DNA of 64,000 nucleotides from Diprion similis (taxonomy: Eukaryota; Arthropoda; Insecta; Hymenoptera; Diprionidae): NCBI RefSeq assembly GCF_021155765.1, contig NC_060106.1, positions 8,129,501 to 8,193,500 on the forward strand, read 5' to 3'. The notes below the pieces were generated by a model. That model worked only from the letters and a program-made list of their open reading frames with translations. It made no database searches and had not been told where the DNA came from. Below, in pieces: positions 27,951 to 63,461 of the stretch. Made by a program: the position numbers and the translations under genes. The first letter of the stretch is position 1, and each line of letters begins with the position of its first letter.

Positions 27951-29025
27951 TTAATAGTTAGTCGAGCTTGACGACGAGCTGGAGGAGCTTGACGGTGATC
28001 CGTAGGACGATTGTGCACTTGACGAACCACTTCCGGAGTAGTAGTTGTACGCCAGATTCTGTGCTTCTACTCCACTGGTTGGGGTCCACACTCGGGAATA
28101 GGGCCCGTTTCCGTCCCACGTGTTCGCGGGGTCGTAACTTGAGGTCGTTGATGGGGTAGCGGGTGCTCCATACAAGACTGAAGCTGGATCCATTGACATA
28201 CCTGCAAAAGTCAATAGTAAGTTTTTTGTACAACTAACTCAGTGACGCGTCAAGTTTTAACATGCATTTAGTGATCGAATGTTTCACATGTTATGGATAC
28301 CTCTTTGCTAATCTCAATTAAGTTTTTAATCTTGTAGTTTCATCGTTGGTATCAAACAGTGTACGACGTACATCGGTCAGTTAATTGTAGGTATAATAAT
28401 TGTGCTTTAGATGAGGCGGGTTTAAATAAAGACTTTGTGGCTTCTTAGTTAGGAAATTGAGACTCATTTTTTGACACTTACCCATCGGCATAGCCATGCC
28501 TCCCTTTTTGAAGAATTGTACGGCGATGAATCCAACGACCAACAAGATGGCCAATTTCGATAGTACCAGAGCCTTGAGAGCCTTGAGACCGATGATGGCG
28601 ACGAAGATTGGCATCAAAGCCTTCAGTTTCAATTTAAGAAGCAGGAGGAATGGGAAAAGAAGTTTCTTCTTGAGGAGACCACGAGCTTGGCTTGTAGCTA
28701 CAGCATTGTCCTTGAATTCGATGTCAAGGTCAGCGAGGCTCCTGCTGGGTCGGTACTTGAGACTGGCATCGGCAAAGGGAATGTCGATTCCGTAGTCGAA
28801 GCTCTTAAGGTACTTGAAGGTCCTCGCCACCACAGCTTCGTCAACGGTGTCCAAGGATCTGGCCTCAGTCGTGGTGCCCAATTTTTCGTCCATGTATCCA
28901 AGGACCTCGCTTTTGAAACAAGAACTCCATGATTCCGCGTTGATGCAGTGGTTCAAGGAGGTCGATAGGAAGTCCTGCGACGCCGCGGCACTTGCCACTA
29001 AGGCTACGAATGTGAGTAAACGCAT
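27951..29025 (-). CDS. Osi20: Osiris family protein, Osi20 candidate
   Basis: Two exons: 29,025-28,482 and 28,201-27,951, giving 264 residues. The intron has GTAAGT and TTTTGCAG ends and is phase 1, splitting a glycine. The start at 29,025 was preferred over the upstream ATG at 29,085 because it opens directly into a signal peptide (MRLLTFVALVASAAA). Two cysteines follow (C27, C36), then the DUF1676 hydrophobic block at about 120-172 (LLKKKLLFPFLLLLKLKLKA...). The tail has AQNLAY at 228-233 and ends in a ten-serine run. Osiris proteins are insect-specific secretory-pathway proteins of cuticle-forming epithelia; molecular activity is unknown. It is the last gene of the cluster on this side, which fits Osi20. 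Family membership is very likely; the paralogue number is inferred from order. Confidence 0.8.
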
Positions 29026-32958: not shown

Positions 32959-33787
32959 TTAATTCTGGACGTATCCAGCATAAGCGAGGTCCTGAGCGGT
33001 CTCCTGGGGGACGGCCTGGGTCTCGTCGAAGGCACGGTACTGGGCAGCCTGGTACTCCCAGGGTCCATGAGCAGCGAGAGGAGCGGCGTGACTGTCAGCA
33101 GCGATCTTTTTGCACAGCTGGAAGATAGCCAAGCCAACAGAAACGACGAAGCTGAAGAACGAGAGCTGAAGTGCGTTCCAGGCTTTCAGTCCGAGGACAC
33201 CGATGGCCAAAGGAATGAGGGTCATCGCCTTCAACAGGACGAATACGAGAATGGGGATAATGACTTTCTTCAGTTTCGATTTACGGGCTTCCTGGACGGC
33301 GCGACCTTCGCCGAACTTGACGTTGAATGAAAGCTCGTCATCGTCAATGTTGCGGGGGCTGACTTTAACTGAAGACTCGAAGGGAAGCTTGAAAGTAACG
33401 TCGTGGGAAGCCAAGTAGGACTGGATGGTCTCGAGGAATGAGCCTTCACTGCGGGCAGACACTTCCTCGACGGGGTAGGAGTTGCGTGTCACCTCGACGG
33501 TCTCTGATACCTGGAAGATCATAAATTCTAGAGTTATCAACAGTGATATGTGACGAGGCTCGAATGCCGGAGAAATATTTCACCTTAAAGCTGTCCTTGC
33601 GAAAGATCTGATCCAAAAGATTGAGGACCTTGAACTTCATGCAAGAAATCTCGTCGTTTTTCTGGGCACAGTCACTTTTCATCTGGTCCACCATCGTATC
33701 CATGCTGGTGCCTTTCCAAAAGTCGGTTTTGGCTGGCTGGGCTGAGGCGAAGGCCACAAGGGCGCACAGAACGTAGAACTTCATCAT
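32959..33787 (-). CDS. Osi19: Osiris family protein, Osi19 candidate
   Basis: Two exons: 33,787-33,584 and 33,510-32,959, giving 251 residues. The phase-0 intron (GTGAAA...TTCCAG) falls inside the N-terminal domain. The start at 33,787 ([16 protein letters not shown]) gives a signal peptide; the ATG at 33,814 would add nine residues in front of it. The two-cysteine region is C40 and C49. A beta-like segment with [10 protein letters not shown] (about 102-111) precedes the hydrophobic DUF1676 block at about 146-200, rich in Leu, Ile and Val after a KSKLKK start. The tail carries AQDLAY at 240-245. Likely a vesicular or apical membrane protein of cuticle-forming cells, by family knowledge. The closest neighbours in style are the flanking Osi18 and Osi20 candidates; the number rests on order. 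Confidence 0.82.
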
Positions 33788-36498: not shown

Positions 36499-37470
36499 TT
36501 ACTTCCGGTAAGCACGGTAGGGTCCGTGCGCTCCAGCGTCCCAATGAGGAGCGTGTTCCACGGGTGGGTGTCCGTAGTGGACAACCTCGTAGGCGACCTT
36601 GGGCTTTGTGAGCTTGAAGATAAGCATGGCGCCGCTGAGCACAAGAGAAAGGAGTCCTAAGGTGAGGGCTTTCCAGGTCTTCAGCGCAATCAGAGCAAGT
36701 GCCAGAGGCACCAAAGCGGTAGCCTTGAACTTCAGTCCCAAAAGAAAGGGAATCATCACCTTCTTCACGAACCCACGACCTGTGAAAATGGAACAATAAC
36801 AGTTTTAAACAAATTTCAGCCACCACCATTTCGCTATTCCACAATATTATTAACACTTTGAACGGTATGAATTCAGCGCTCTTCGAATAAAAGTTAGATT
36901 CTCACCCTGTCCTGCCTCAGTGTCAGCTAGGGGCACAGACAGGCTCGACGGCACAGATTCAACCAAAGCTCTGGGGACGATGTTGGATCCGGAAATGGCC
37001 TCAGGCAGCTTAGCCTCTAGCTGATGACTGGATAAGTAGGCATCCAGTTTCTCGAGCATCATGGAACGCAGGAGTTCCCTCCTGGCTGGGTCAGCGGCAT
37101 CGTATTGCTGGTAGTATTCTTCGGCGTTATCCTCAGGCGCGTCGCGTGACTTAACTATGACCAGATCTTCCGTGATCCTTATCTTGTCTTGTTTAACAGC
37201 CTCGCTCACGTAAGCCAGCAGCTTCGGCTTAACGCAAGATAGCAGAGATTCACTATCCATGCACCTGAAACGTAAGTAGTTATGGGCGATGAAAAGTAAA
37301 TATCTGATCTGAAGAGTTTAAGTTATTCTTCGCTCGAATGAATGCCTTAAATTAACAACTAACCTGTAGTAAATGTTTCTTAGAGCCTCCGTCGTCGTGG
37401 AGGCATCCGGGACTTGGGCTGTGGCCAGAGAGCCCAGAAGGGACAACGAAATGATAAGGAAAACCTGCAT
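36499..37470 (-). CDS. Osi18: Osiris family protein, Osi18 candidate
   Basis: Three exons: 37,470-37,364, 37,264-36,906 and 36,779-36,499, giving 248 residues. Intron phases are 2 and 1, with clean GTTAGT/TTTCAG and GTGAGA/TTCACAG ends. The signal peptide is [18 protein letters not shown]. The cysteines are C37 and C46 ([10 protein letters not shown]). An SSHQLEAKL segment (about 114-122) leads to the hydrophobic block at about 160-211 ([17 protein letters not shown]...). The intron-2 junction splits a Gly just before Arg, as in the Osi12, Osi14 and Osi16 candidates. The tail is short, ends HGPYRAYRK and lacks AQxLAY. The ATG at 37,509 was rejected because it precedes the signal peptide by 13 residues and lies almost at the predicted cap site. 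Confidence 0.82.
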
Positions 37471-37549: not shown

Positions 37550-40500
37550 CTGGACGCGCTGGACGACTGCTGAATTTTTATGAGAACGTGCTGTCAAACG
37601 CAAGAAGAAAGCCATGGTGTAGGGTGCTGTGATTGGTTTTGGTGCTTCGGCCACTTGCTCTACTGTGGCAAATTCAAGCTGGCTCTAGGTCAAAAAGTGA
37701 GAATTGAATCAGCTGAAGACGATGATTAGTGCACTATCCGTGCCTAGTAAAGGCATAGCTTCGTACATTGAACCAATTATTTTTTGTTGAAAACGAGAAT
37801 CAAGATTTTTCCTCGAATGCATTTTTAATATACACAAAATGTCACTTCAGTGTCGAGCCTGAGATTTGTTACTCCTAAAATCGATTCAGTTTTTTCTCAC
37901 CCTTTGGAACAGTGTTTTAAGTTTCACGCTATTGCATTTCATACGTGAATAAAATATGTCTTAACGTGGATTCGTCAAACGTTTGATAAATTAAAACAGG
38001 ACAGTGAATATGATAAACTGTTTCGAATTAGAGCGGCGTTTTTTCTGCAGTCATAAAGTCCAAACATTAGTTTCTGGAGAAATAAAAATGATCTTGAAGG
38101 TAAAGGATTTTATGCCATAGTCTGTAAGAGACGCCGTAGACTTTTTAACTTCTTGCCATTTGAATGATCTATGAATACTGCAATATGATCAATAAATGTA
38201 TATAAGAATATAAGTTTATTCAGAGCAGTTTCTTCGCGGCATTTTCCTAATAAGTAAACGTATAATATGGTTTGACCGTTAAACATCATTTTAATGAAAA
38301 TAATAACATATTTGATTTTTCAGATATTGAAATCTTTGCTTTTAGTGAGCCATTTTGATCAAAGTATATAGAAAGTTTTTATTCTGCTAATATTTGGTTT
38401 CTGGTCGCTCCAAAGTGAAAAAAGCGAGTATCAGTATCAAAGATAATTGAATTATCTCCACTATTTTGTTGATTTAAGATCATTTTCACGATCATTTCAG
38501 AAAAGTCGCCGAAGAAATAGGAATAGGTATATTTTTTAGACCTTATTCAAACGTGAAAGGTCACATGCTGTAAGGTTTTTTTGAGACTTGAGCTGAAAAT
38601 CTTATTCAATTCATTAGAATTTTCTGGACAAAAATACTAATGTTTGAAAACTGTTTTCCCAATTTAAAATTCAAGTGCAATTAACATCGGACCATATTCA
38701 GCTGTGTTTCGTGTGATGTACTCTAATGTTTGTCGAATCAATTTTGAAATGCCTCATTATCTGACACTAATGATGAACAGGATTGCATTAGATTGAATCC
38801 GAAAGGAATCACAGTTGACACTGCATTCTCAATAGTCAAAATACCTAGACATGTCCCACACATATTAGCATGCTCTGTAATGTCGATAATCAATAATCAA
38901 TCGTATATATAATGCGAGTTGCTACGGTGAAAATTACTATATAGCCCCGTTAAACTCCTAGCTGTCGTGAGTATGAATTGAGGTAGTACATAGCTACTGA
39001 ACCTTTCATGGAAGGCAAATCGATGTAGACTTTCGAACACTTCTTTTCATTCTGGACTTTGATACTCTTTGAAATCTTATATTTTCCTGCTAAAAGCTTT
39101 TTCGTATTATAAAAAATTCCCTCCTTATTTGCAATAAAATATGTTCAAAAATCGTACCTATTTCTGCCATCACAAAAATCGGCATTTTCCCGAATAATTT
39201 CTAACGAGATTTCAGAAACTTGACCAACATAAACAATATTCACTGCGGAGTCATAATAAAAACTTTGTGCCTGATTGACACGCTGGTCTTCTATTAACAG
39301 AAAAATAAGTTGCATTTTATACTTAATATATATATAATATTTCCCAGACCTTCCCTTTCCGGCCTCCCAGAGGGGAACATGTTTTGAAAAAAATGCTTAT
39401 ACATAAAAAAATTAATACGCAAATAGTCTTTATTATTTTAAGACATCCGAAACGACATATGGTCATCATTATTAACAGAAAAAGAATTCTTCTCAGGTTT
39501 TTCGTAATAATCAAGCTGAATCTCAAGTTTACGTATAACAAAAGCACGTCATTGAAACTCGTAACTGCAAAAGAGTAATATTGCGCGCTGAAAAATGAAT
39601 TAGAAAGCATCAATCATAAAATAACGTACCACAGATAGAGGACCCCCCCTCGATACAGCCGAGCATACCAAACTCCCCCCCCCCCCCCCCTCTCATGACC
39701 TCTAACCATATACGCGGCTTATGTACAGCCCTTAATGGAATGATATTTAACATAATTTGACAGATATATCAATTTTAAGTAGGTTTACTACTAGGAATAT
39801 CCAGCTACAAGTCCTCATATTTTGTTAAAAATTTAATCACTGGAAGGAAATTTGAATATCATTTCGCCACGATAATAAATACCACTTTAGTAAAACGTTG
39901 CAATTATTGTTTTTCAAAGTTCAAATACGCTAACCTTACGCTCATTACAACGAATGGTCAACGAGACAATACAATCCGAAGTTCACGAAATCCCCGCGAG
40001 AGCAGGCCAGTCGGAAATTTGGAGAAGAATCCAAAACCGAGGGGTAGTACCAATCGAAACTCGGTGGGAACAACACGTGGATCCTGTCGAAAGTAGTTCG
40101 TTATGTGTGCGAGAGTGATACAGTGAACTATGTAAGCATGAGGCTATCAACTCGACGAATCGAGGCTCATAACGATTGATTTGATTATTAAATGATGCTC
40201 GGGTCGTGTTTCAAATGTACTTGACATAACGCGAGAGCAGAACTGATGCAGATTCTCGTGCTGAGACCTGTAGCTAATTCTCAAGGCAATTTGACTACTT
40301 GGTCACGAGGTTTGTCACTAACAGGTCTGTAAATGATAACAATAATAATCACTGTATATTGATTGACAGTTATATTCCTATTTAATCTTGTAAAACGATA
40401 TTATTAATATAATATCTTAATGACAATGAGTGCGAACCATTTGTCCACGTAGAAAAAAACAAGAGCCATTTTGCCTCTCCTAGAAATCTGATGATAAAAT

Positions 40501-41835
40501 TTCCAATCATGTTGAGCAGATTAATACGACTCGTTAAACACTGCAATCGTAGTAGTTTACTTATGAGGCTAATGTGTAATGACGGCATACCTTGATGTTG
40601 GATTTATATAGCTTGGTAGTAAACCCTGTTAATTCAGGAGCTGTGGGTTATGTTAGAAATACGACATACTTACGTGCATCGTTGCGTATCGGATCTCAAC
40701 CTGCTATTAAACATATACCAAACCCGTAATCCAACAATGGAAAGTGCTGAATGATCGTTATATCTAACGAATTAAAAACGAGAAACGCTTTTGCTGATTG
40801 ACAGATGACTTGTAGAGTATTTATGTAAATAACCTGTACAGGAGGATGAATTACACAACCTACTGACCGTGCTTATGACATGACTAATTCTAACTAACGA
40901 GTGAATCTTGATTGAATGCTCTTACGTTATTTTTCTTAGATATTATTAGAACGAGACGAGCTCATCGAACTCACTGCTTATGGAACTGGCTCTTCAGGTA
41001 GGATGATAAAATCAGCTTTATCTAATTTCACGATTATATATTACCACGATAATTTGATTATGGTAATCTTGATTCGAAATTCCGTCATTTTTGGGTTGCA
41101 TAACGTAAGATATTAAGGATTCTCATAAACGAGTATCGTAGAAGCTGATACGCGAGATTTCTAGCACAGTTAAGACTGCAAAAAGATTTAATATTTGGGA
41201 TAGTGAGTTAATTGCATCAAAGTAAGAATTCTTCTTTTGAAATTGATTTATTATACATAATTTACAAATTATATTCTATTGAGCACACACAATATAGACA
41301 ATTTCACAAATAAATACAAACATTACACGAATGATTGTTAACGGTTCTCTACAATCTAAGTGGCATGAAATGAATCCATACCAGTGGATGGCAATGGCAC
41401 CCTGTTTAATGAGAATGAATTTGACTATGACTACGAACTATATAATTCAAGATAATAGTTCTTAGATGAAATAAATAAAACACAACGCCAGTGTTAAAGC
41501 AGTCCAGATATGCGAATTATATCTCAGGAACAAACGGAGAGTCGGGCTTAAATTTTCACTTCTGAGGTTTCTGGTTAGCAATGCAATTAGACTAAATTTA
41601 CCATACGTCCGGAATTAAAATCCATGCACTAATGACGCCGTGAGTTATGGCCCGTAAATCTCAGTGCAATCTGAACGCACGTTGTTCAGTAATTCTAATT
41701 TCGTATTTTTCGTATTTCTACATGAAAATAAATATAAATATACTTATAGGATAAGACTATACAAAGATTGCAACTACATTTTGAGTCTACGATGCAACAG
41801 ACTCTCGAAGTTCTACCTCGGAACTTCTGGTACTT
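37550..41835. other. Osi18-Osi17 intergenic region
   Basis: No gene is supported. The region is AT-rich with a poly-C run at 39,675-39,690 and no convincing frames. Confidence 0.5.
39675..39690 (+). repeat. Poly-C run (16 bases)
   Basis: Sixteen consecutive C bases, with a second C run of about seven some 30 bp upstream, in otherwise AT-rich sequence. Length may be unreliable in the assembly. Confidence 0.85.
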
Positions 41836-41837
41836 TT

Positions 41838-44800
41838 TTATTCCGTGCTTATGTGACAGGAATACAACCGGTGGCAATCACCGCGGTCTTGTCCAGCCCT
41901 TGCAGCATTCATGTAACGTTGAAATCGTCGCCCTGATGCACTTTCGCGGTTACCTTGTCGAAGTTCATCAGCTTCCCTGGAATGAGATAAAACAAAGTTA
42001 AATACATCGCGATCTAGTTCTCAGCTTTTGTTTTGAACGTACTTTCACCATGCAATTATATTAAGGGTACAGATGTAATTAAATTCGCAAGGCAATGATC
42101 TTAGATATCGAATGATGATATTCAATATATTCAATGTCATTCCAACAAATCTGCCATAGTTAGTGAAATGAAAATAACCGTACTTATCAAGTACAAATAA
42201 AAAAATTACATGTCACATAAAAAATGGGACGTAAGGATTAGATTCAGATCAATTTTTGCTCAAATTTCGCTGTTCAAAAAAAAAAAAAAAACTACTTAGG
42301 AAATGAAGTGTAAGAAGGCTTGCTTCCGAAAGTTGAAAAAATCGGTCATTCACGTGGCGCCTGCTTCACGGCCTTGCCGATTTCAGCTCACCAGTGTACT
42401 TCCGGCTTCCATTGAATAGTATAATTATTCGTACCACGTGTTTCTGAGTAAACTTCATCGACCACCGCCTTTAGTTATTTCCGCAGCGTGGCAGACCGTG
42501 GCTACTATGTAGGCGTGACCGTAATTCGACAAGGATCCTCGGTTCTTTCACCGGTTTGATCTACAACGACCTAGTTGTGCTGGTTGCTATCTGTCTAAAC
42601 GCGAACGCGGGGAAAGGCGTGGAAATGCGGCGAAATATTACAAATATTTTATCCCGCCCATGTTTACCAAAGGTGCGTGTTATCACGTGGCGCATCATCG
42701 ATATGCATGCTCAGGTGTACCGTCAACATTTCACAATCGTGACCCAAAAACCTTAAAAAATATAACCCAGTGGACGGTGCCCGGTAAAAGGCCACTGTCA
42801 GTGACCCGATTGGCTCAATTTGACTCGTCTTATTAGCGCGCCTTTCGCCCGACGTTAATTGATTCAAAGTTCTTCGTTGACAATTCCGGACCATAATGCA
42901 TAAACTCTACACCAATGAGCACAGTCAGTGTGTGTGTTTCCGCTGACAATGACTTCACATACCTCGACAACTCGTTCGATACAAGATTGCTGTGGGGTGT
43001 ATACACCGTGGGATTTTTATACATGCTGCAAATCAACCGCTCGCGACAATCCTCTTCCAGAAACCTGAGCTGTTTGAAGATTTCGTCTAATCTCCCAACA
43101 ATGGGACCGTAAAATTCGTCGTCATATGTTCTGAGTTGATTCCTGGATGCATCGGATTGAGTATTCTTTGCATTGTCTTGCTGAGCAATTCTCTGCTGGG
43201 ACGACTGCAGATTATAGGTTGACTTTTGTGCCGTTGTCACAGGATTCAAGGCGAGGGCATGTTGAAAATTCTGCGGGACTTGCGAGAGCTGCTGGTAAGG
43301 CTTGGCCACGTTTTGGGCTGGTTGATTTCCCAGCTGACTACTTTGCGTGTAAATTGGAGACTTTACCGTCGGCTGCACGGAGTGAGGAATACGCTTAACG
43401 ATGTCAACAGCCGGCGAACTGTTCAACCAGGCATCAGCGCCATCCGACTTTGAGGTGAATCCAGAATTCTTCGAAAATGTTGTTCCGGGTCTTATCTGCG
43501 AGCTGAACAAGTGGTTTTGCTGCTGGTGTTGCTGCTGCGGATGGTAAGGGACCTTTCCCATACTCGGTTCAGTCACGGGTGCGGCTGCCCGAGTAAATCT
43601 GACGTCATCAAAGTACCCGTTGTAGGCCAAACCTTGAGCGTGATTCCCGATTGGGCCTAAGTTTGAAACGGGCCCCTTTGGTCCAACATTTTTGTTGAAC
43701 TGGGTCATGCCTAGGTTGCTCAAAGTGTGACGTATGTTTGGATGGGGATTCTCATAGGGCCCAACCGGCTTGTCGTACTTGATCTGAGGCGTGTACTTCT
43801 CGTATAAACCTGGCTGATTGGGAACCACCGTAACCGGTCTGGCGTTAGCCGCATATTGAGGCACCCCGTATGGGCCGAGTGCCGGCTGTACGCCGACGTA
43901 AGGTTCTGGAGTCAAGACACCTGGATCCTCGTAAGAAGCGATTCCCCATTCCCTCAATTCTTCCATGTCTTTTCTGTACTGAATGTGTGGCTGCGTGTAG
44001 TCGTAGCCATCAAACTCCTCCTCTTCGTGATGGTGTGGATGGTGCTCGTGGTGGAAGGTCGGAACTGGTACCGGAACCGGCACGTGATGATGGTGGTGGG
44101 CAATCTAGAAAATATTGAGAACGAGGTGTTTAATTGGCCGGGAAATTTTTTGGCTAGTTTACAAAACAGGCGTAATATGCCAAAACGAATGCGCAATTTT
44201 ATGCGTACGATTTGAAGAAATTAACAACACGTCTGCTGTGATATCCAAATACCATTTCGGGTTGTAATCGACACTAAATTCTACCTGATGGTGATGATGA
44301 TGATATTTGGTTCCGCCACTGTAATAGCTCGAACATAATTTGAAGACGTGGGCAAACGCCGGTACCAGGAAGAGCAGGACTTTAAGGAACAATTTCTTTG
44401 CAGTTCCCACACCAAATAAGAATGGAATAATGAAGAAGAACTTGATTTTGATGAGCTTGATGATCAGAAGTAGGGCCAGGAAGCTTGTGAGCAATTTGTT
44501 CTTGATGAATTTCTCTGAAAAATTAATAATATCGTAAGACCAAGTAAGAACACATTATAAGAAGGACTCTAATAAAATCCTTTTGATAAACATGAGATAA
44601 GATAAGAAAAGGTATCTATGCTCACTTATTTTATGAAAGAGTCGTCCTTGCTCAGATATTGCTCTTTGGTTGAAGTCTACTCTTATTAGAGCTCCATCCT
44701 CATCGACCTCTTTAGGGCTGATCTTTATTGATGTACCCTCGAAAAAGAAGTTCGGAAGTTGAAGCTCATAATCCTTCGTTGCTAAGAACTTGATTGTTTT

Positions 44801-45274
44801 GTCGTGGAGGGCGTTGGTGACTTCTTCGAGTGGAGACACAGGTTCAGTGTAATAATTTTCACTTGACTTTCTGGAACTCTGTTTGTCAGTGAATGACTTC
44901 CCATCAGCCTCGTCAACATTATTGTGTTCTTCGTCAGGGTTTTTTTCGTTGTATTCGGCTGAATATTTATGATAATCCAAGTTATTTTTTGTCAAAGTAA
45001 AACCATCGAACACCGTGATATTGTCCTGGTCTGCAAATGTATTGTCCAGATAGGTATAGACATTTTTTTGAATGCAAGAAAATGACGCTTTTTTAGAGCA
45101 GTCTTTGAGGAGCCCTTGCCACAGGATATTTCCTGTTTCATTGGGGTATAACCCCTTGATGTTGAATATATTCACGTACGATTTCAATTTGGTGAAGTTG
45201 AATAACTGGCAGTAAGTCGAAGACACGAGAAGTAGTAACAAGATCGTTCTTTGGCACATTTTAAACCCGTACAT
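41838..45274 (-). CDS. Osi17: Large Osiris family protein with four-cysteine C-terminal domain, Osi17 candidate
   Basis: Four exons: 45,274-44,626, 44,514-44,285, 44,104-42,963 and 41,976-41,838, giving 719 residues. Intron phases are 1, 0 and 2. The first ATG has a good insect context (CCAAAATG); an in-frame ATG at 45,259 is also possible. A signal peptide (ILLLLLVSSTYC) leads to C59 and C67, then the hydrophobic block at about 217-270 (KFFFIIPFLFGVGTAKK...). His-rich runs (HHHHH) flank the exon 2/3 junction, AQGLAY is at 449-454, and a Gln-rich linker follows. The tail has CRERLIC (646-652), an SNLVSNELSR stretch, and in exon 4 AARAGQDRGDC and YSC. Exon 4 is my reconstruction; without it the frame runs on to a stop at 42,833. 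Its size, far larger than its neighbours, matches Osi17, which I recall as the largest paralogue. Confidence 0.78.
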
Positions 45275-51433: not shown

Positions 51434-53757
51434 TCATAAACCATAGGGTACAATATTTCCATTCTTCATGAGCCTTCTGTAAGGCTGGTGATTCTGTGGA
51501 TACTCGTAGTTGATGTCGAACGAATCTTGACCAGGGCGTTCCGCTTGACCCCTTCCGACAGAATATTGCTGACTAGCCGTCCATCGTTTAGCAAGTTCAA
51601 AGTTCTTCCAATCATCAGCGTTCACAGGATTCGAAACGCTGTCATCGACCAAGGCATTGCGGGTGTCCTTGATGGGAGCAACGCGATAGCTGGACCGCAT
51701 CGTGATAAATTTGCTCTGCTGCAATGGTTCCGTCATGGTTTTGTTCTTCTCTATTGCGCGAGGCGTCGACTGACTTTCCACTGACATCTCTGCTGAACCG
51801 TTAACAATGTTGGGCCTGTAAATGGGACTGACGATTTGATATACAGGAACTTGCACGTCGGTTCGTCGCGTCTCCTGGTGACTCGTGTTATCAGAATCCG
51901 GCTTATCGACGGTCGCTGCAGGTACGTCCCTCGCTTTGGTGAGTCCTGGAAGCTCTATTCGCGAATTGGAATTTGAGATAGATTCATAGGCGTTAAGACT
52001 GCGACCCCACCCCCCTGCTCCACCGCTGCCTCCACTATCCCAGCCTCCAGCTGGTGCTCCATAACCACTCGACGGAGGAGGGGCACCATAACTGTCCATC
52101 GGAGCTGCGGTGCCGCCGCCGCCGCCGCCCGTGGATTTTGTTAACAGAACGATCTCCTTCAACGGGGCGCCTCCTAGGGGAAAGTAAACAATAAATTAGA
52201 GAGAACTGTTTGAACGAATGTCGGTAAGGTGGTTGTTCTTGGTGCCGTGAAAGGTGATTCAAGGATGGTATCTATGCACAGACATCACGGAGGAAGGGGG
52301 GAATGCGGTGAGAATTGATAATGTCGAGGGACAGCGGACAGTTGCACCGATAAAAAACTATAATTATATAGCTCGGTAACTGAATATCGAGGGACAGTAG
52401 GTCACTGGGTTAACAAAGATTTAATTATGCGACATTGCTGAAGGAGTCAAATCGCTTAACAGTTATTCATATTTTATTTATGCGCATAATGGGCGTTAGG
52501 ATTATCTTGAATTTCGTTGCAGGTAATACGTTTGATGAAGATGACAAACCGGGTTTTCTAGGGCAGTGAATTATTGCCTGGTCACGTGACATGACGTTTG
52601 CAGGAAGTGAAAACCACTTGACATTAAATTTTTGTTCTTATACTAATCTTACCGCCTCCACCTCCTCCTCCTCCTCCTCCTTGCCATGGACCACCACCGC
52701 TTCCCCCACCACCACCGCCTTTCTTCAAGTCCATCAACTTCTGAATCAGCATCCATTTTGAAATCATCAATGACATTCCAGCCATCATCATACTTTTCAT
52801 TGCCGTCATACCCATCATCCCTGTACGATACGAATCGTTATAGTTTGGTTCAAATTGAAGATTGATAATATTATTTAAGAGCAAAATTCATACCCATCAT
52901 TTTCATTTTCATCATCATCAGCATCATCATCATCATCTTCTTGCATTTACCACCACCACCCTTACCCCCCTTGCCGGCTTTTCCTCGACCTGATCGCATG
53001 CAAAAAATAATACTTTTGATTATTAGAAATGCGTAGACAACACCCAGCACGTGACAGTATACATTTAAAAAAAGTGATCGTACAATAAGTTATACACGTC
53101 TCTGATCATTCGTATGCAGTTTTTCAGTTAGTAAAACCTAATTAATTTCCTTTATGAATAGTATGTACTGTATGTGTTACCTAAAGTTTACGTACCTTCG
53201 ACCAACCCAGTCTCATCGAACATCACATCTATTTGGTTTTTCTTTTTATTTCCCTGTATGCTTGGTAGATTGATCCGTAAGGCAAAGACGTCAAAAAAAG
53301 AATCGATATCCCGGCTGATAACGTCATTCATCTCGTGCTTGAAATCCAACGATCTGCTCTCTCCAATTTCCTTTGCTGGCTCCTTAGTTCGAACAAGTTT
53401 TACCCAATTCCCGAACAACGTGATCTCCTTCAGACGTCGAATTTGGTCCAAGAAGTTGTGAAATCTTTGCTGAACACAAGTCAAAGATAGGTCCAAAACG
53501 CAGATACCGATATCCTTGGCAGGAAAGCTGGGAAAATCGTCCTCTCCATCGGTATCATTGCGAAATGGGACGATTTTCAGGTCCAGCTTGATGCCGTTCT
53601 TCTGGTATTTAAATATCGGTCTTTCCGTGGGTACCGGTGAATCATAGGGCTCAATATCTGGCTCATAATCCAACGATTGTATTTCATTCCCCGTATTTCG
53701 TCCGAACACAACACCGTCAACGAAGAAAAGATACGCGATAAAAAAGAGAATTTTCAT
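51434..53757 (-). CDS. Osi16: Osiris family protein with Met-rich hydrophobic block, Osi16 candidate
   Basis: Four exons: 53,757-53,196, 52,989-52,894, 52,820-52,653 and 52,173-51,434, giving 521 residues. All three introns are phase 1, each splitting a glycine. The signal peptide is MKILFFIAYLFFVDGVVFG. The cysteine pair is C86 and C94. The usual hydrophobic DUF1676 block is replaced by a methionine-rich one at 206-250 (22 Met in 45 residues), preceded by a Gly/Lys stretch with C203 and followed by long Gly runs (254-275) and a SYGAPPPSSGYGAP region. The last 240 residues are polar and look disordered. Poly-Gly coding makes exons 3 and 4 prone to assembly length errors. The neighbour on the 5' side (Osi14 candidate) is only 632 bp away. 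Paralogue number is inferred from order; the diverged core makes it less certain. Confidence 0.72.
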
Positions 53758-54389: not shown

Positions 54390-55328
54390 TTAGTTCTGAA
54401 TCGATCGACGATCCCTGACATTTCCGTACTTCAACACGGCGTCCTGCAGGGAGTCATGAACGGTATCCAGGGAGCGTCCGTATCCAGAGTGGCCATAACC
54501 ATGGCCATGGTGTTCCTCAGAGCTGTGAGTATGTGCCGACGAATATACGGGCTTGCTAACGATTTCGTATGTCGTCTTCTTCTCTCCACCGCCGGCAAGC
54601 GATTTGAGACCAACGATTGCTGACAGCATAAGTGCCATGAGACCCGTCATCAGGGCCTTACCAGCGAGCAGAGCCAAAGCGCCGAATCCAACCGCACCAA
54701 GGGTTCCCTTCATCATCATGAGACCGGCCATCAGACCTCCCATACCACCCTTGTCCTTTTTACGACCTACGATAAAATAATGTCAAGGTTAACATCAGTT
54801 GTCAACAGTGGAAAGCGATCCATGACCATGGTTATATTTGAAACTCATACCTGTTTCAACGTTCTGATTTCCGCCGAAGCCCAGCTGATTAAGGGTCTCT
54901 TCGTTAAAGCTGCGTGCAGCTTCGAAGGTCCTGGGGTCGAATAATTTGATCGAGATCGCATGACTGTTGAGATAACTTCCGACCTTGTGAAGCAAAAACG
55001 CGTCAAGTCTCTTGTCGACGTCATTGGGGAAGTCTCTTGCAAGATTTGCGACTACTTCTGAGGCCGGAACATCCTTGGAGTCGGTCTCCTTGACCAGAGA
55101 GACCCCTGGAAGTATTCCAAGGTCCTTGGTCTCCGATAACTTGTCCACGAAAGATACCACGTCCAGTTTCAAGCACGTTGCACTGTAAGATTTGTTGCAG
55201 TCCTTGTTCAGTGAGGACGATGGGGTTTCCGGAGATTCCTCGACCGATTGTCTGGCCGTACGCTGCTCGATTTCCGCGTACGAAGCACCAAGCAGTGCCA
55301 GAAGCGAAAACACAATTAACCACTTCAT
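54390..55328 (-). CDS. Osi14: Osiris family protein, Osi14 candidate
   Basis: Two exons: 55,328-54,851 and 54,766-54,390, giving 284 residues. The phase-1 intron (GTATGA...TCGTAG) splits the Gly of a Gly-Arg pair. The signal peptide is MKWLIVFSLLALLGASYA. Cysteines C44 and C52 are followed by GVSLVKE (75-81), a SYLNSHAISIKL segment (118-129), then a GRKKDKGGMGG lead into the hydrophobic block at about 171-216, rich in Gly, Ala, Leu and Met. The tail is His/Ser/Gly-rich (HHGHGYGHSGYGRSLD) and contains no AQxLAY. The GRKKDK lead, Gly/Met-rich block and YEIV-KP-Y stretch before the His-rich tail match what I remember of insect Osi14. Role by family: secretory-pathway protein in cuticle-forming epithelium. 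Confidence 0.83.
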
Positions 55329-62845: not shown

Positions 62846-63189
62846 TCAAGGCACACCTTGGTAACCCTGATAGCCCTGGAACTGATCGACGTATTCGGGT
62901 ACCCAGCCTCTGTAGGGCTCGTTTACTTCTTCCTGGGACCTGTGCCAGTGATCGTGATGTATATCATGTGGCTTTATGATACCATAGCTCACCCGCGGGG
63001 GTAGTGGCGGAGGCGTAAGGAGAGCTTTGAGGGCTAGAGCACCAGAAATGAGAAGAGCTGCGAGTCCAGTACCCAAGCCCTTAATGCCGACAAGACCGAT
63101 CAGGGTGATGACGATCGGTAGAACAATCATAGCCTTTAATTTCAAAGCCAGTAGAACGGGGATCAGGATTTTCTTGAGTTTCGAACGTC
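62846..63189 (-). CDS. Osi12: Osiris family protein, C-terminal exon, Osi12 candidate (5' part unresolved)
   Basis: The last exon is clear: a CTTTCTTCAG acceptor at 63,190, then a phase-1 Gly-Arg junction and GRSKLKKILIPVLLALKLKA, a hydrophobic block of about 50 residues, TPPPLPPRVSYGIIKP, a HIS-rich HDIHHDHWHRSQEE segment and PYRGW before a QGYQGYQG end. This proline-rich and HHDHWHRSQEE tail is characteristic of what I recall for Osi12. Signal peptide and two-cysteine domain were not found with confidence. A possible preceding exon ends at 63,462 (CAG/GTAGGT donor, right phase) and encodes GEACFTHVLQVEG...VPG, whose THVLQV resembles the SH-x-hydrophobic segment of the paralogues, but it is open only back to about 63,560. 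The first exons may lie beyond the window. Confidence 0.78.
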
Positions 63190-63461
63190 CTGAAGAAAGT
63201 AGGGAAAACAGATATTGTCATAAAATGAAAAAGCGAATAATGATAATTTCGAATCACTATGCATACGGGGTACAATGTATCTGGTGTATCTCGACTAGAA
63301 AACCCATAATCTCATCCCCACCATCGCTCTCGGATATCCTGAAACCTACTTTCTTCGAAGCATGCACCAGACCTCCACTCTCTACGGCCAAGGTCAAGTC
63401 GCCAGTATTTTCTCTCTGCGTCTCTATCCTCGAGGCAGAGGTAATCGACCTAAAAACCTAC

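Follow-up and report, generated by a model that had tools for sequence, protein, structure and literature searches.

Osiris proteins are recognised by a two-Cys region, a DUF1676 domain, a hydrophobic stretch and an AQXLAY motif, according to the available sections of PMC3284338. Among the 20 Osiris genes of Nilaparvata lugens, the available text of PMC12825958 reports a DM4_12 domain only on Osiris17 (680 aa) and Osiris24 (478 aa), which are mutually close kin and have four conserved cysteines near the C-terminus. The same text describes similar hatching-failure phenotypes after RNAi of Osiris17 or Osiris24, and soft, transparent ovipositors after Osiris17 knockdown. In Drosophila, Osi17 mutants are lethal, and wing expansion depends on Osi17 in the wing epithelium, likely via the cuticle (excerpts of PMC11151929). 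In the honey bee, DM4/12 and DUF1676 are listed as distinct enriched protein classes (excerpt of PMC9764631). Among the DM4_12 papers listed, PMC12825958 is, judged by titles, the only one that concerns Osiris.

We analysed a window of 64,000 nucleotides of Diprion similis DNA (NC_060106.1, positions 8,129,501 to 8,193,500); positions below are those of the window unless they carry a contig prefix. The window contains a probable Osi17 gene that can be likened to N. lugens Osiris17 through the published description (available text of PMC12825958): although the species differ, both proteins have DUF1676 and DM4_12, four C-terminal cysteines and a similar length (680 versus 719 aa). Since DM4_12 on Osiris17 and Osiris24 is published for N. 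lugens, the architecture of the gene here is already known. We consider it highly probable that the gene encodes the insect Osiris-17, a membrane protein of the secretory pathway with a long low-complexity linker and a DM4/DM12 C-terminus split over exons 3 and 4.

The probable Osi17 gene and its relatives in the Osiris cluster

The Osi17 gene model has four exons on the minus strand, separated by GT-AG introns in phases 1, 0 and 2, and its product is 719 aa long. Exon 1 (44626..45274, minus strand) holds the ATG, a hydrophobic N-terminus that may be a signal peptide (residues 10-28, from Kyte-Doolittle hydropathy only), the two-Cys region and the start of DUF1676, and ends in phase 1. Exon 2 (44285..44514, minus strand) carries, by gene model, Pfam and hydropathy, the hydrophobic, putatively membrane-spanning stretch and the end of DUF1676, and ends in phase 0. 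Exon 3 (42963..44104, minus strand) encodes a His/Pro/Gln-rich linker, the AQXLAY motif as AQGLAY at residue 449, and the first half of DM4_12 including CRERLIC, and ends in phase 2. Exon 4 (41838..41976, minus strand; 139 bp including the stop) encodes the second half of DM4_12 (RYMNAARAGQDRGDCHRLYSCHISTE), and its DNA matches nothing else in the genome but itself. The DUF1676 domain (PF07898) spans residues 58-275 at 107.7 bits (8.7e-31) and covers the profile from 1 to 170 of 170, with C59 and C67 of the two-Cys region at its start. A candidate poly-A signal, AATAAA, lies 3' of the stop (41247..41252, minus strand); AATAAA also overlaps the stop codon (41,842), and ATTAAA occurs at 41,410 and 41,192.

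We found 43 DUF1676 matches in the genome at E<=1, and 38 of them lie in one cluster (C2:8158040-8292930). Neighbouring Osiris DUF1676 matches, all Pfam matches on the minus strand, occur in the window at 28540-28866, 33124-33471, 36613-37263, 53236-53502, 54603-55202 and 63026-63193. Between the Osi17 gene and the closer boundary of the cluster there are three DUF1676 loci, as would be expected of Osi18-20 if gene order tracks numbering. In our assignment, the putative Osi17 label fits the length of the protein, the DM4_12 domain (in N. lugens on Osiris17 and Osiris24 only) and this assumed gene order.

Using the Osi17 tail as a genome query, we recovered just one of the listed DM4_12 loci at E<=10, a second tail copy at C2:8286896-8287171 (E 2.9e-22, 46% identity over residues 3-94 of 100) that is an open frame with no stop. 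This copy also exceeds the DM4_12 cut-off, with 25.8 bits. A further match, at C13:2399638, had an E of 0.445, which is chance level. The second tail belongs to a locus (C2:8286890-8292930; L046, L047) with a DUF1676 exon and two open frames, one hydrophobic and one encoding DM4_12; the tail lies downstream of the DUF1676 exon, and the locus occupies the end of the Osiris cluster opposite the Osi17 gene. The locus is likely Osi24, as its position fits that of Drosophila Osi24, which sits between Osiris 1 and 2 (available sections of PMC3284338). Osi17 and the Osi24 candidate share the cluster, an upstream DUF1676 exon and the DM4_12 tail, whereas the Osi24 tail is one open frame without an intron and has a second cysteine pair of the form C-x6-C. 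The available sections of PMC3284338 also report that Osiris 17 and 24 weakly match ESTs of springtails and crustaceans; these might be matches to DM4_12 and not to true Osiris genes.

The hidden last exon

The original prediction placed a donor, AG/GTATGT, at 42,963, followed by a 986-bp intron and a 139-bp exon at 41,976-41,838, and all of these values proved exact. The last base of exon 3 is 42,963, intron 3 (41977..42962, minus strand) runs from GTATGT to TTCCAG, and the acceptor reads CATTCCAG/GG. As claimed, the additional exon keeps the frame and leads to the 719-residue product; the junction is in phase 2, within the Arg codon of NELSR (residue 674). Without splicing, 42 more codons would be read before a stop at 42,833. 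The prediction had warned that a plain frame call to that stop would give a wrong tail, and indeed those 42 residues differ and the read-through tail matched no Pfam family at E<=10.

The Osi24 copy has no intron where the Osi17 junction falls and its frame runs straight across, which makes it a template for the correct splice. We scored 3980 GT/AG pairs (16 donors; acceptors to base 38,000) against this intron-less copy and found that the pair 42,962/41,976 ranks first, with a score of 145. Read-through scored 71, which comes from the shared exon-3 portion. The best pair with an acceptor outside exon 4 scored 106, and its frame also runs into exon 4. When the donor was kept fixed, the top score among 25 control blocks of 4.5 kb, drawn from both window strands and including some plus-strand blocks opposite the Osi17 gene, was 95. 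The predicted exon 4 junction, at the top of 3980 pairs against the Osi24 copy, is more than chance. The homology to the copy, at 46% identity, extends across the junction.

The frame that stays open for 42 further codons would also allow the gene to end in exon 3 at 42,833, with exon 4 a chance frame. However, exon 4 is the second half of DM4_12 and is kept in the Osi24 copy, the read-through tail is without a Pfam match and scores 71 against 145 for the spliced form, and neither AATAAA nor ATTAAA occurs from 42,833 to exon 4. We regard this ending as extremely improbable. The same open frame could instead mean that both forms exist, with intron 3 sometimes retained to give an Osi17 isoform that lacks the second cysteine pair; the tail without a Pfam match and the stretch free of AATAAA and ATTAAA before exon 4 argue against such an isoform, which is unlikely. 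The hidden last exon of Osi17 looks real, and splicing in vivo would join it to exon 3.

The DM4_12 domain and its intron

We found that the spliced Osi17 tail (102 aa) matches Pfam DM4_12 (PF07841) with 25.4 bits (E 2.4e-5) against a curated cut-off of 22, and that the full 719-aa protein scores 21.7 bits, slightly below that cut-off. Hence, naive annotation can miss the domain, since an intron divides it and the full-length protein scores too low. Its four cysteines are C646 and C652 (CRERLIC) and C708 and C714 (CHRLYSC). When the tail was searched against solved structures, nothing appeared beyond two matches to NLRP1 at chance level (E 0.82 and 1), and a scan of genome contigs for relatives matched 77 stretches, of which 0 were confirmed.

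At E<=1 we found 21 DM4_12 matches in this genome; 18 exceed the cut-off, and a tandem cluster at C12:11.018-11.066 Mb accounts for 17 of all 21. The array itself (C12:11018584-11065466; L052-L057) contains about 14 stand-alone DM4/DM12 genes, and in 13 of these a candidate phase-2 donor occupies the same site within the domain.

We scanned 16 of the 21 matches for donors, leaving aside the Osi24 copy and C7:9683567, whose frames are open across the whole domain, and three second-exon matches. We measured intron position in residues from the second cysteine (Cys2), since aligning the three unsplit copies left too many gaps between the cysteine pairs for a comparison by column; the scan covered 10-43 residues past Cys2 and halted at the first in-frame stop. 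In 14 of the 16 other DM4_12 matches, the top-scoring candidate donor is in phase 2 and 21-26 residues past Cys2 (six at exactly 21), on rough donor scores and with a bias toward sites just before a stop that follows from halting there. The intron 3 donor of Osi17 is in phase 2 as well, 21 residues past Cys2. The two exceptions are C12:11033698, with its domain in one open frame, and C2:11013012; the latter is not supported as another split DM4_12 gene, as it is under the cut-off and its best candidate donor is poor.

With the donors fixed, joining the 14 split matches gave seven scores of at least 120, four weaker four-cysteine joins (70-100), one of which was picked by a C-x5-7-C filter over a join of equal score, and three cases with no convincing join. 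A four-cysteine join at C2:14353313 (score 92) was left uncounted, since its acceptor sits in a poor context and an alternative join that lacks the second pair reaches 98. The stand-alone DM4/DM12 genes of the C12 cluster (PF07841) resemble Osi17 in their four-cysteine domain and in a putative phase-2 intron at the corresponding site, but their sequences are distant, and the Osi17 tail query retrieves none of them at E<=10.

The original prediction had pointed to a four-cysteine module outside DUF1676, like that of other arthropod proteins. We identify this module with DM4/DM12, because the spliced tail is over the Pfam cut-off, the Osi24 copy exists and the intron site is common to the other genes. 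The tail could in principle be a convergent module unrelated to DM4_12, as its Pfam score is modest, its second pair is C-x5-C where the other copies have C-x6-C, and its query retrieved no listed DM4_12 locus but the Osi24 copy. Yet the tail alone is above the Pfam cut-off, as is the Osi24 copy, its intron matches the probable position and phase in other DM4_12 genes, and an independent study places DM4_12 on Osiris17 and Osiris24 (available text of PMC12825958); convergence is very unlikely. Overall, the original prediction read the sequence correctly and with care. As to cysteine spacing, C-x5-C followed by C-x5-C holds for Osi17 and not for the other recovered copies, which have C-x5-C followed by C-x6-C.

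The C-x6-C form of the second pair occurs in the 11 accepted joined copies and in the three unsplit ones (C12:11033698, C7:9683567 and Osi24). In Osi17, CHRLYSC (41856-41876, minus strand) is C-x5-C, one residue shorter than in the other recovered copies. Hence, the double C-x5-C is a feature of the Osi17 protein. This contrast between the last pair of Osi17 and the copies recovered here is possibly unreported.

Retention of the DM4_12 intron in Osi17 is possibly unreported too. The words 'intron' and 'exon' are absent from the main text of PMC12825958; in PMC3284338 'intron' is absent and 'exon' appears once, concerning gene prediction; and the literature searched lies mostly outside subscription journals.

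Proposed topology and origin of the tail

The putative transmembrane region of Osi17, from hydropathy only, is a hydrophobic stretch at residues 219-280; over 19 residues its profile peaks at 228-246 (2.49) and again at 258-276 (1.98). These peaks are compatible with a two-pass hairpin that leaves the tail in the lumen, and because the region is nearly continuous, one and two membrane passes are indistinguishable. The protein would travel the secretory or endosomal route of cuticle-forming epithelia, and its four DM4_12 cysteines would form two disulphides on the lumenal side. If DM4_12 is a disulphide-bonded secreted domain, then the Osiris C-terminus would lie on the lumenal or extracellular side; if that is true, the membrane region would be a two-pass hairpin, and this would argue against cytosolic sorting signals in the C-terminal part. 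However, Osi proteins are described with a YXXO sorting motif (available text of PMC9870157), and such a motif would ordinarily need a cytosolic stretch, which speaks against a lumenal tail. DM4_12 would fold into a small cap, carried on a flexible tether, that may help to build the apical extracellular matrix or cuticle, with Osi17 presumably acting in the secretion or assembly of the apical matrix.

The tail was probably gained when, ahead of the split between Osi17 and Osi24, an Osiris gene fused with an intron-containing DM4_12 unit, and Osi24 probably lost the intron later. We tentatively suggest, at somewhat less than even confidence, that Osi17 and Osi24 stem from a fusion in which the DM4_12 gene joined to an Osiris gene was split beforehand, that Osi17 keeps the intron of the latter (same site, phase 2) and that the Osiris C-terminus is lumenal or extracellular if DM4_12 is a disulphide-bonded secreted domain. 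The work adds another insect genome in which a gene of the Osiris cluster, known to be dosage-sensitive, has a correct model. The shared intron offers a simple way to test the origin of the Osi17/Osi24 architecture, and the cysteine module leads to a testable prediction on the membrane topology of Osiris proteins.
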